A stretch of DNA of 64,000 nucleotides. Origin: Acidobacteriota bacterium. GTDB lineage: Bacteria > Acidobacteriota > Terriglobia > Acidiferrales > UBA7541. Below the pieces are notes generated by a model. That model saw only the letters and a list, made by a program, of their open reading frames with translations, was not told where the DNA came from and did no database searches. The DNA lies in contig QHYE01000038.1 in assembly GCA_003224055.1 (NCBI GenBank), forward strand, positions 1 to 64,000, given 5' to 3'. Below are positions 57,415-60,840 of the stretch, in pieces. The translations under genes were made by a program, and so were the position numbers. Position 1 is the stretch's first letter, and each line of letters opens with the position of its first letter.

Positions 57415-59205
57415 CTACCCTGCAGCCTTCTTGTCTTCCTTAATTGCGATGCCGAGTTGGTCGAGCTGGTCTTTGTCCACGGGCGAAGGCGAATCGGCCA
57501 TTAAGTCTTGGGCGGCGGTTGTTTTCGCGAAGGCGATGACTTCGCGGATGGATTTTTCGCCGGCGAGGAGCATGACCACGCGGTCGATGCCGAGCGCGAT
57601 GCCGCCATGGGGCGGTGTGCCGTAGGTCAGCGCGTCGAGGAAAAAGCCGAAGCGGCGGCGCAATTGTTCTTCCGTGAGGCCAAGGGCTTTGAAGAGGCGC
57701 TCCTGAATGTCCTGGCGGTGGATTCGAATGCTGCCGGAGCCGAGTTCGTAGCCGTTGAGGACGAGGTCATAGCCTTTCGAACGGACCTCCCAAGGCGCGG
57801 ATTCGAGTTTCTCCAGATCTTCATCGACGATGCCGGTGAACGGATGCTGCGCACTGACCCAAGTTTTGTCGGCCTCGCTCCATTCGAACAGCGGGAAGCC
57901 CGTGAGCCACAGGAATTTCCACTGTGATTTGTCGATGACTCCGAGTGCTTCGCCAAGGTGCAAACGCAATTGACCGGCGATCAGTGCAGCGGCTTCGGTG
58001 CCCTTGATCCGTTCCTTGGCGGAAACGGCGACGACGAGGTCGCCGGGCTTTGCACCGCACGCTTCGGCGAGTTTCTTCACCTTTTCCGGACCGATCAGTT
58101 TTTCGACCGTCGAAGTCATTCCATCCGGCGCAACTTTCACGAAGTAGGCGCCGCGCGCGTGCAGCGATTTCGCTTTTTCCGTTAATTCGTCAAGCTGCTT
58201 GCGCGAATAGTTTCCTGCACCTGGAGCCGCTAGCGCAAAGACGTTTCCTTCGATTTGCAGTTTCTGCTTCGCTTCTTCGGGGAAGCAAAACGTCACTTCG
58301 TGGAGCTCCATACCGAAACGCATGTCCGGCTTGTCGCTGCCGTATTTTCGAATAACGTCTTTGTACTGCATATGCGGGAACGGCGCTTCGGCCTTGATGC
58401 CGGCGACGGCGCAGGCGCGCACCATGACCTGCTCAATGACATGAAAAATATCTTCCTGGCGCGGGAAGGACATCTCCAGGTCCAGCTGCGTGAATTCGAG
58501 CTGGCGGTCGGCGCGCAAATCTTCGTCGCGGAAGCACTTTACGATCTGGAAATATTTGTCCATACCGGCAATCATCAGGATCTGCTTGAAGATTTGCGGC
58601 GATTGCGGCAGCGCGTAAAACTGGCCGTGATGGATGCGGCTCGGCACAAGAAAATCGCGCGCGCCCTCGGGCGTCGAGCGCGTGAGCATGGGCGTCTCGA
58701 CTTCGAGGAAACCCATTTCGTCCATGACCTTGCGAATTTCGAGAATGATTTTGTGGCGCAAGGCGAGGTTGTAGTGCGGCTTCGGGCGGCGCAGGTCCAA
58801 ATAGCGGAAGCGCAGGCGCGTCTCTTCCGCTGCGTTGATTTCGTCCTCGATCGGAAACGGCGGCGTCTTGGCGTTGTTGAGAATGTGCAGCTTCGTGGCG
58901 ACCAGTTCGACTTCGCCGCTAGCCAGCTCGGGATTCGCTTTCTGGCGCTTGATGACCTTGCCTTCCACGGCAACGACAAATTCGCTGCGGGCCTGCTCGG
59001 CTTTGGCATGCGCCGCGGGCTGTGTCTCTTTGTTAAAAACCACCTGAACAATGCCGCTGCGGTCGCGGATATCGAGGAAGAGCAAATTGCCGAGGTCGCG
59101 GCGTCGCGCCACCCAGCCCATTACAACGGCATCGCGCCCTTCGTCCTTGGCGCGGAGTTCGCCGCAGTAGTGTGTGCGCTTCAAATTGCCCAGAAAATCC
59201 AACAC
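57415..59205 (-). CDS. aspS: Aspartyl-tRNA synthetase
   Basis: About 596 residues. OB-fold anticodon domain (GWVARRRDLGNLLFLDIRDRSGIVQVVF), class II core with FLEVETPMLTRSTPEGARDFLVPSR, FRDEDLRADRQLEFTQLDLEM, the bacterial-specific insertion, and the C-terminal motif 3 GIALGIDRVVMLLAGEKSIREVIAFAKT. I used GTG 59205; an in-frame GTG at 59232 falls in a palindromic repeat and is less likely. Whether it is discriminating or also charges tRNA-Asn cannot be read here. Confidence 0.94.
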   Translation of the reverse strand: MLDFLGNLKRTHYCGELRAKDEGRDAVVMGWVARRRDLGNLLFLDIRDRSGIVQVVFNKETQPAAHAKAEQARSEFVVAVEGKVIKRQKANPELASGEVELVATKLHILNNAKTPPFPIEDEINAAEETRLRFRYLDLRRPKPHYNLALRHKIILEIRKVMDEMGFLEVETPMLTRSTPEGARDFLVPSRIHHGQFYALPQSPQIFKQILMIAGMDKYFQIVKCFRDEDLRADRQLEFTQLDLEMSFPRQEDIFHVIEQVMVRACAVAGIKAEAPFPHMQYKDVIRKYGSDKPDMRFGMELHEVTFCFPEEAKQKLQIEGNVFALAAPGAGNYSRKQLDELTEKAKSLHARGAYFVKVAPDGMTSTVEKLIGPEKVKKLAEACGAKPGDLVVAVSAKERIKGTEAAALIAGQLRLHLGEALGVIDKSQWKFLWLTGFPLFEWSEADKTWVSAQHPFTGIVDEDLEKLESAPWEVRSKGYDLVLNGYELGSGSIRIHRQDIQERLFKALGLTEEQLRRRFGFFLDALTYGTPPHGGIALGIDRVVMLLAGEKSIREVIAFAKTTAAQDLMADSPSPVDKDQLDQLGIAIKEDKKAAG

Positions 59206-59228
59206 GTCGACCTCTTCAGGTTCTAGTG

Positions 59229-59302
59229 GCACAGACTTCAGTCTGTGCTCTTTCTCTTCTCATTGCCAAGTTCAGGTGTTCTGCACAGGCTGAAGCCTGT
59301 GC
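59229..59302. repeat. Pair of short palindromes between hisS and aspS
   Basis: GCACAGACTTCAGTCTGTGC at 59229-59248 and GCACAGGCTGAAGCCTGTGC at 59283-59302 are two variants of the same perfect palindrome, 34 bases apart. They occupy the gap between hisS and aspS and look like a REP-type doublet. Confidence 0.65.
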
Positions 59303-59316
59303 CACAAAAGCTGCCA

Positions 59317-60840
59317 CTACGACTTCCGCAAAAAATCCAACAATTGTGGCTCGGTCAGTTTTTGCTGCGTGCCGTCTGCAAGCGTTTTCAACGTCCACTC
59401 GCCGCTGGTCACTTCATTATCGCCGAGAATGAGCGCATATTTCGCGCCGAGTTTGTCGGCCTGGCCGAGGGCTTTGCCAAATTTTTGCTCGACGGGCGGC
59501 AGTTCGACGCTGAATCCGGCGCTGCGCAAAGCTTTCGCGGCGCGGACGGCCGTGCCACGGGCATTTTCGCCCATCCAGGCGATGTAAACGTCGCGGCCTT
59601 GTGCGACCGGGGCTTTGCCGCTCTCCTGCAGGGACAAAATCAAGCGGTCTTCACCGATGGCGAACCCGATGCCTTTCGTCGGCGGACCGCCGAGGAGTTC
59701 CACAAGGCCATCGTAGCGCCCGCCGCCGCAAACGGCGTCCTGCGAACCCAGTCCCTGCGCGGTGATTTCGAACGTGGTGCGCATGTAGTAGTCGAGCCCG
59801 CGCACGAGCCGCCAGTTTTCGCGATACTTCACGCCGCGCAGATCGAGCTCGCGTTTCACAGCCGCGTAATGATCCGCGCACTGCTTGCAAAGATGATCGC
59901 CGATGCGTGGCAGCTTCTCTATGATCGCCTGCTCTTCCTTGACTTTCGAATCGAGCACTCGCAACGGATTCGTATCAATGCGCCGCTGGCTGTCAGGCCC
60001 GAGCTTGTCTTTCACCTTCAGCAACTCCGCGCGAAGCAGCTCGACGTATTTCGGCCGGCATTCGCGGCAGCCAATCGAATTCACGCTGAGCTGAACACCC
60101 TTCAGCTCCAGCTTTTCGAAAAAAGTCATCACCATTTCGATGACCTCGGCGTCGATCGCGGGAGCATCGGTGCCCCCGAGCACTTCTGCACCAATCTGAT
60201 AAAACTGCCGGTAACGACCCTTTTGGGGCCGCTCGCGCCGGAACATTGGCCCCATGTAATACAGTTTCACCGGCTGCGGAAGCTGTTGCATGTTGTGCTC
60301 GATGTAGGCGCGGCAGGCTGACGCGGTGGCTTCGGGACGGAGGGAAATGTCGTTTCCTAAACGCAGAGCCTCGAAGAGCATAATAAGCGTGTAGATATCA
60401 CGGGAAGCATCTTCACTCTTCGAAGTTCCTGCGAGGAGATCGTTGACCTTTTTCGATTGGTTTTCTACTAACTCAAGACCCATTTGGTCTTGTGATTCCT
60501 GTGAGATCTCTCCAGATTTGTACAGTTGTCTTACCTTCTGAAGAAAAACGCCAAGATTACCAATAGAAGTGTGCAGCTCTAGTTTTTCGGATCGGTCAAC
60601 AAAGGTGTACATCTCTTTCGAGACGATGTCGGTTTCGCCGCCGACAGCGCGAGCGAAGAGTTCGGTAGGTTCGAAGATGGGCGGGCGAATTTCGCCGTAT
60701 CCGAATGTGCCAAAAATCTCGCGCGCAGTCTGCTCAACGCGATTCCAGAGCGCAGTTTCAGGCGGCAGCAAGTCCCGCGTGCCGCGAATCGCTTGAAACT
60801 TGCCCGGCTTCTCTTCTTTTTTGGCTGCGCCTTCGCTCAC
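59317..60840 (-). CDS. hisS: Histidyl-tRNA synthetase with an unusual internal insertion
   Basis: About 507 residues from GTG 60840, overlapping the stop of the upstream gene (GTGA). Class II blocks: AIRGTRDLLPPE, YGEIRPPIFEPTELFARAVGGETDIVSKEMYTF, LRPEATASACRAYIEH, PMFRRERPQKGRYRQFYQIGAEVLG, and the HisRS-specific RGLDYYMRTTFEI and GGGRYDGLVELLGG. Between VDRS (residue 84) and DISLRPEATA about 79 residues are inserted, and 60361-60600 counts 105 G/C of 240 (44%) against about 58-62% in most of the flanks. The usual LRPEGTA reads LRPEATA. The reading frame is intact, so the enzyme is probably active. Confidence 0.92.
   Translation of the reverse strand: MSEGAAKKEEKPGKFQAIRGTRDLLPPETALWNRVEQTAREIFGTFGYGEIRPPIFEPTELFARAVGGETDIVSKEMYTFVDRSEKLELHTSIGNLGVFLQKVRQLYKSGEISQESQDQMGLELVENQSKKVNDLLAGTSKSEDASRDIYTLIMLFEALRLGNDISLRPEATASACRAYIEHNMQQLPQPVKLYYMGPMFRRERPQKGRYRQFYQIGAEVLGGTDAPAIDAEVIEMVMTFFEKLELKGVQLSVNSIGCRECRPKYVELLRAELLKVKDKLGPDSQRRIDTNPLRVLDSKVKEEQAIIEKLPRIGDHLCKQCADHYAAVKRELDLRGVKYRENWRLVRGLDYYMRTTFEITAQGLGSQDAVCGGGRYDGLVELLGGPPTKGIGFAIGEDRLILSLQESGKAPVAQGRDVYIAWMGENARGTAVRAAKALRSAGFSVELPPVEQKFGKALGQADKLGAKYALILGDNEVTSGEWTLKTLADGTQQKLTEPQLLDFLRKS

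Follow-up and report, generated by a model that had tools for sequence, protein, structure and literature searches.

Lineage-specific insertion domains of aminoacyl-tRNA synthetases (aaRS), such as that of alpha2 glycyl-tRNA synthetase (GlyRS), are generally conserved within their lineages. The insertion in alpha2 GlyRS-type enzymes is an extra domain on a class II core loop between motif 1 and motif 2, and the same holds for the insert that we describe here in the histidyl-tRNA synthetase (HisRS) of an acidobacterial genome. However, the HisRS insert is nearly completely different between congeners, absent in some of them, and exchangeable apart from the gene. Rickettsia palindromic elements (RPEs) are likewise in-frame extra segments in housekeeping genes, but RPEs are repeated at many sites per genome, whereas the HisRS insert occurs once, in hisS. 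Inteins have a similarly patchy distribution at one fixed site of a conserved gene; the long HisRS inserts differ in being predicted to be helical, in their length of 75 to 125 residues, and in that no splicing domain was found in them. The target-recognition domains of type I restriction systems, as generally understood, are hypervariable blocks between conserved flanks that undergo homologous exchange, much like the HisRS insert, but in the present case the block, which has no known role in recognition, is carried by an enzyme essential for translation.

The genes of translation enzymes are commonly regarded as slow to change and, for the most part, vertically inherited, and near-complete divergence among close relatives is unusual for so conserved an enzyme. 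Literature on aaRS insertions, Acidobacteria, toxins and phages, and horizontal transfer, covered mostly outside subscription journals, yielded no title or abstract describing a hypervariable or lineage-specific HisRS insert. A published paper reportedly deals with a CRISPR spacer against hisS in Pelobacter.

The window, the 64,000-nucleotide stretch of DNA that was analysed, comes from a genome assembled into 136 contigs, with a total length of 4.53 Mb and a completeness of 95.6%. Its hisS reading frame starts with GTG and matches the HisRS equivalog TIGR00442 with 468.3 bits (curated cut-off, 286.75) as well as PF13393, PF00587, and PF03129, and it gives the single HisRS match in the whole genome (E up to 0.001). 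The catalytic regions FRRERPQ.GRYRQF, RGLDYY.R, and G.GFAIGEDR, which we take to be those that carry the named motifs of HisRS, are retained (consensus of a 55-row alignment). The features referred to below are as follows.

59317..60840, minus strand: hisS, histidyl-tRNA synthetase, 507 aa (TIGR00442, Pfam, single genome match)
60361..60588, minus strand: insert domain, aa 85-160, without a counterpart in E. coli HisRS (PDB alignment, family alignment, leave-one-out profiles, low GC)
60514..60564, minus strand: insert helix 1 (aa 93-109), predicted (AlphaFold2, 55 sequences)
60487..60513, minus strand: insert turn GEISQESQD, the form that the family turn GEIPxTxxN takes here (alignment of 39 inserts)
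60430..60495, minus strand: insert helix 2 (aa 116-137), predicted (AlphaFold2)
60367..60417, minus strand: insert helix 3 (aa 142-158), predicted (AlphaFold2)
60322..60342, minus strand: LRPEATA strand directly after the insert, its Ala being the lineage norm (88 of 93 loci)
57415..59232, minus strand: aspS, the next gene, used as a control (one-piece match in 30 of the 34 congeners with a match)

When the window HisRS was searched against the PDB with phmmer, aa 14-84 and aa 161-501 matched adjoining stretches of E. coli HisRS. The alignment halts at aa 84 and restarts at aa 161 on the same E. coli residue, and the 76 residues between are therefore extra. The reading frame is preserved throughout, and in sliding windows the GC content dips at about 60360-60600. 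Between the anchors, over 86 codons, the GC content is 0.43 and GC3 is 0.43, compared to 0.59 and 0.70 in the flanks; among 487 overlapping 86-codon windows from 42 greedily chosen long ORFs of the 64-kb window, none had a GC content as low and 11 had a GC3 as low. The extra AT-rich, in-frame segment in the catalytic domain that had been proposed from the DNA is thus real, and the extent given for it in the original prediction (60352-60588, 79 residues) was right to within three codons. That prediction had also read LRPEATA as a change from the conserved LRPEGTA. The motif is indeed present, but it is not special to this locus: it was found in 88 of 93 HisRS loci, with or without an insert, including those of 9 of 11 relatives from outside the order, so that it is a lineage trait and not a consequence of the insert.

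The family sample consisted of 89 genomes from 13 genera, 83 of them with a HisRS match; two sister families of the order and 11 of 18 class-level relatives were also sampled. Of the 96 HisRS loci that were parsed, 93 had both anchors (those of G039, G078, and G098 did not), and one of the 93, a second copy in G067, was omitted from the 79 family loci. Alignment of the relatives' HisRS, a check that the original prediction had proposed, revealed an insert at the same hairpin (15 to 125 residues between the anchors) in 62 of these 79 loci. There were at least 75 residues in 38 loci and 15 to 74 in 24, and the other 17 had a plain turn of 8 or 9. The sister families had 57 (G037) and 105 (G038) residues between the anchors. 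None of the 11 class-level relatives had a large insert; their loci had 8 or 9 residues, except for one with 15. The turn in the 17 insert-free family loci is clean, as in 10 of the 11 outgroup loci, which fits replacement by an insert-free allele. The remainder of HisRS was 59 to 92% identical to an insert-free congener over the best matching piece in nearly all family members.

The window insert was also scanned against 84,980 named species genomes, a search that reaches close relatives only; it returned one locus, the homologue in G016, a congener of the window genome. In a phylum sample of 149 genomes (148 with a match), in which the site was not resolved in divergent HisRS and a small insert may escape notice within a one-piece match, the match was split at the site, among the matches listed, only in G141 and G161 beyond the window genome. 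These two genomes, from one other family of the class, carry short unrelated inserts at the same hairpin (loci L102 and L101, respectively), which suggests that the hairpin accepts insertions more widely than in this order.

The 39 inserts of at least 75 residues (38 from the family and 1 from a sister family) fit one alignment with a shared order of helix, turn GEIPxTxxN, second helix, third helix, and then LG[DE]xxxLRPEAT, with no invariant residue within the insert itself. Because an aligner aligns anything, each long insert was also searched, with the anchors removed, with a profile of the other 38. All 39 were recovered at E values of up to 5.6e-4 (39 sequences), and every left-out insert outscored all of its 200 shuffles, the sister-family insert being the weakest. 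Pairwise similarity was sparser: blastp matched 152 of 1,485 pairs of inserts of at least 30 residues (E up to 0.01), and with composition-based statistics and the anchors cut only 29 of the 39 long inserts joined one group (E up to 1e-3). The profile matched 41 of the 399 class genomes examined (40 from this family and 1 from a sister family), a count that is partly circular in that 39 of the 41 are in the profile, with G078 and G098 independent and up to 12 candidates scored per genome. All 41 matches sit at known hisS positions, once per genome. It is well supported by these comparisons that the long inserts form one domain family across the acidobacterial family and, more weakly, in a sister family.

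Searching the insert alone against protein libraries, as had also been proposed, returned no convincing match. No described domain common to several inserts was found in Pfam, PHROGs, or PADLOC, where there were matches to single members only, at E values of 0.0039 or worse; SHOCT (PF09851) reached 15.8 bits at best, below its gathering cut-off of 27, in 1 of the 39 members. PDB sequences gave no convincing relative either (the best, at an E value of 0.035, was a designed helical protein). The window's insert had no NCBIfam domain (E up to 0.01) and, with regard to a phage origin, no match in 50,697 phage records (E up to 1). Sequence and profile searches of the window genome (E up to 10) returned a single match, hisS itself, and no further copy, which rules out an RPE- or REP-like repeated in-frame element. 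An intein was also rejected: no splicing (HINT) family was detected in Pfam (39 inserts, E up to 0.1) or NCBIfam (window insert), and the insert is predicted to be all-helical.

The AlphaFold2 model of the window HisRS (55 sequences; mean pLDDT, 83.6) places the three helices listed above between strands at aa 79-83 and aa 162-167. In the model for G111, a genome from another genus with a 115-residue insert, helices were predicted at aa 103-129, 136-155, and 161-177, plus one at aa 76-86 (mean pLDDT, 85.3). The window and G111 inserts are only ∼19% identical, yet three long helices were predicted in both, the two models being predictions from overlapping alignments. A fold search of the PDB with the window model matched HisRS structures, as expected. 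A low-confidence segment at aa 65-76, just ahead of the hairpin, presumably corresponds to the flexible loop near the HisRS active site, and in the model the insert adjoins the TDIVSKEM segment and the LRPE strand. The models thus lend good support to a predicted three-helix bundle on a beta-hairpin between motif 1 and the LRPE active-site strand.

Even genomes with very similar hisS flanks usually differed in the insert. Among the 40 closest pairs by flank DNA (80 to 95% identical), 33 differed in the insert, 5 both had a plain turn, and 2 shared the same insert (G087/G090 and G072/G073). For example, the flanks of G107 and G108 had a DNA identity of 0.866 and their inserts were 17% identical; the corresponding values for G022 and G033 were 0.858 and 29%, and G063 and G065, with a flank DNA identity of 0.881, had inserts of 122 and 38 residues. 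The closest flank partner of the window HisRS among long-insert genomes, G014, shares 87% of flank residues and 24% of the insert, compared to 81% and 65% for G016. DNA similarity between inserts was detectable in just 10 of 2,080 pairs (E up to 0.01).

The best flank partner was also the best insert partner for none of 36 long inserts, and for 22 of the 36 the best insert partner came from another genus; many of these best insert matches are weak, and their order is noisy. The strong insert pairs G000-G016, G031-G034, G006-G108, and G085-G097 (0.49 to 0.61 of the self score) all conflict with the best flank partner. Insert and flank similarities had a rank correlation of 0.15, and 33 of 999 permutations in a Mantel test were as high, so that a weak positive link remains. 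On a quick flank tree of 89 of the 93 loci, which excluded the second copy as well as three rows whose C-terminal flanks were short, the three insert states need 29 changes, compared to a shuffled mean of 41.4 (29 was reached by 0 of 200 shuffles), and plain turn versus insert needs 13 changes. On this tree, insert state is clustered but unstable. The histories of the insert and the gene are largely uncoupled.

There is direct evidence for one exchange of the segment between species. G008 and G028, whose flanks fall in different supported clades, have a common 43-residue insert with 93% DNA identity, compared to 76% in the flanks. In ungapped 60-base windows the identity is 0.87 to 0.97 in a region that begins about 105 bases ahead of the insert and reaches almost to the insert's end, and 0.57 to 0.87 elsewhere. 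The best tract (∼217 bp) runs from −81 to +136 relative to the insert start, with 6.9% mismatches versus 25.2% outside, which was matched in 0 of 200 codon shuffles, and dS is 0.15 in the insert versus 1.25 in the flanks. The segment behaved as a recombining cassette in this one pair.

The original prediction had offered three explanations for the segment, two of which find support. A lineage-specific domain agrees with a domain family seen only in this order (41 of the 399 class genomes), and a recombined segment agrees with the largely uncoupled histories and the one visible exchange. The window's own copy may likewise have been exchanged. A mobile element is not supported, with a single copy in the genome, in hisS, and a classical intein, for which the prediction had judged the segment too short, is not supported by the profile searches or the predicted all-helical fold. 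An old lineage feature had been expected to appear in most close relatives as the same segment with normal composition; most do carry something at the site, but it is usually a highly diverged homologue with low GC3.

Selection on the insert was estimated as dN/dS by the Nei-Gojobori method with 2,000 bootstraps and one genome per species, dS being saturated for most insert pairs. Values were 0.11 for G000/G016, 0.33 for G085/G097, and 0.11 for G072/G073, with 0 of 2,000 bootstraps at 1 or above. G008/G028 gave 0.35 (176 of 2,000 bootstraps at 1 or above), the poorly alignable pair G014/G027 gave 0.46, and the only value above 1 (1.08, G087/G090) came from 19 codons with very few changes. In the flanks dN/dS was 0.06 to 0.21 in 14 of 16 pairs, with one saturated and one at 0.45. 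In the measurable pairs the insert is under constraint at the protein level over short times, yet it is almost completely different in the long term, a combination that would be best accounted for by allele replacement rather than by point change in place. GC3 was below that of the gene's own flanks in all 39 inserts of at least 75 residues, in 24 of 26 inserts of 15 to 74 residues, and in only 14 of 27 plain turns. One might speculate that unpaired alleles escape a recombination-linked GC bias.

A genome-wide tendency to indels was not seen in aspS next door. Partial AspS proteins of 13 congeners, compared in 78 pairs with a mean identity of 0.88, had no internal gap. aspS was matched in 34 of 36 congeners, in one piece over nearly all 601 residues in 30 of them, although that of G030 was ∼32 residues shorter in DNA. 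The other four matches end at a contig end (G022), lie in fragments on two contigs (G007), or are in two pieces (G001 and G035). In the same 36 genomes HisRS gave a one-piece match to an insert-free query in only six, the query's own genome included. The two aspS pieces of G035 (C147:20262-22124) are separated by more DNA than the query needs, and this gene may carry a small insert. Other parts of HisRS also vary in length: among 31 congeners, 182 of 465 pairs had a gap of at least 10 after LRPEAT, owing to the linker that leads to the anticodon-binding domain and to a loop that follows AEVL[GE]. This loop, shortly past motif 2, is 12 to 26 residues longer in 6 of the 31 (L012, L029, L031, L033, L037, and L038).

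The explanation that we favor, at a probability of roughly 45%, is that the insert is a lineage-specific accessory domain turned over by recombination and probably diversified by a putative antagonist. The insert would be a module at the protein surface, under pressure to diversify on its outer face; a putative binder of HisRS near the active-site entrance, such as a toxin, a phage protein, or another inhibitor, would select new faces; and alleles with a different domain, or none, would spread by homologous replacement of the segment. We infer that the insert is not needed for aminoacylation, because alleles without an insert are common and the catalytic motifs are conserved. Recovery of all 39 inserts by leave-one-out profiles, the three long helices predicted for two dissimilar inserts, the 33 of 40 closest flank pairs that differ in the insert, the absence of partner agreement in 36 long inserts, the G008/G028 exchange, purifying selection on the insert in three pairs, the clean turn of the insert-free loci, and the nearly indel-free aspS argue for this explanation as a whole. 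With regard to positive selection, the three measurable pairs clearly below a dN/dS of 1 argue against it, as do the visibility of only a single exchange in DNA, the weak scores of most best insert partners, the weak Mantel link, the 29 of 39 long inserts grouped by blastp, the clustered states on the flank tree, the other variable hisS loops, and the short repeats in hisS loops of four congeners. By a narrow margin we prefer diversifying selection, through an agent that would bind HisRS, to a permissive loop. It is possible, though less likely than not, that HisRS, an essential aaRS, serves as a polymorphic recognition locus, in which the hypervariable helical domain is cassette-swapped between species and putative HisRS-targeting toxins or phage proteins select new or missing faces.

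If a domain turns over faster than the remainder of its gene and is able to move independently, this would suggest an attack on HisRS or a partner of the enzyme, and the insert alleles would form a ready-made panel for finding that attacker or partner. The insert also calls for caution when this part of hisS is to serve as a phylogenetic marker.

It is possible instead that the hairpin tip simply tolerates extra sequence: a helical domain, having entered a single time, would drift rapidly and be lost or swapped through ordinary recombination, with no selection for diversity. The other length-variable loops of HisRS, the longer one in six congeners and the anticodon-domain linker, argue against a wholly site-specific story and support such a permissive loop, as do short repeat DNA lying in-frame in hisS loops of G004, G020, G012, and G035, the short inserts at the site in the two genomes of another class family, and the low GC3 throughout the inserts. 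However, the purifying selection seen in three close pairs, the prediction of three long helices in inserts of very different sequence, and the stability of neighboring aspS in the same genomes argue against mere tolerance, and unrelated inserts at 84 to 88% flank DNA identity would need very fast drift or replacement.

An accessory domain with a lineage-specific job, such as binding of tRNA-His or a partner or tuning of the active-site loop, together with a co-evolving partner, is unlikely. Constraint in close pairs, the conserved predicted fold with its GEIPxTxxN turn, and the position of the insert against the TDIVSKEM segment and the LRPE strand are consistent with such a job. However, 41 of the 79 family loci lack the domain or have a shorter segment in its place (17 with a plain turn), which makes it dispensable, and no residue of the insert is invariant. 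The tRNA-His of the window genome, the only genome examined in this respect, looks ordinary, with an encoded G-1 and C73 (L100:1470-1545), and this argues against an unusual tRNA-His as the cause of the insert there. Another tRNA-His pattern match in the same genome was discarded, as ARAGORN calls no tRNA at that position.

An in-frame selfish element, intein-like or repeated, that homes into hisS is highly improbable: patchy presence at one fixed site of a conserved gene and the one transfer seen would suit it, but there is one copy, in hisS, in the window genome and in each of the 41 genomes with a match, the segment is short and predicted to be all-helical with no intein family among its profile matches, and some 80 bases of flank belong to the transfer tract, in the manner of homologous recombination. 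A metagenome assembly artefact is barely credible, for although many of the genomes are fragmented drafts and the record of the G016 homologue is a MAG, 62 of the 79 family loci have an in-frame insert bounded by the same anchors, some of these loci belong to genomes with a completeness of 95% or more, and the long inserts are homologous to each other.

The repeats in hisS are of two kinds. A dispersed heptamer repeat, (CTCGCCA)n, lies in-frame in hisS of G004 (L031), G020 (L038), and G012 (L030). In G004 one copy is in the hypervariable insert, another is in the linker, and a third lies immediately ahead of the probable start; hisS of G020 has it twice, and that of G012 has it once. Overlapping matches to the heptamer with up to 2 mismatches numbered 34 in G004, 84 in G020, 38 in G012, and none in the window genome, and a backward control gave 0, 0, 1, and 0, respectively. 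hisS of G035 (L037) has a different short inverted-repeat element, which reads VASGDPDRVG and occurs twice, in two different loops.
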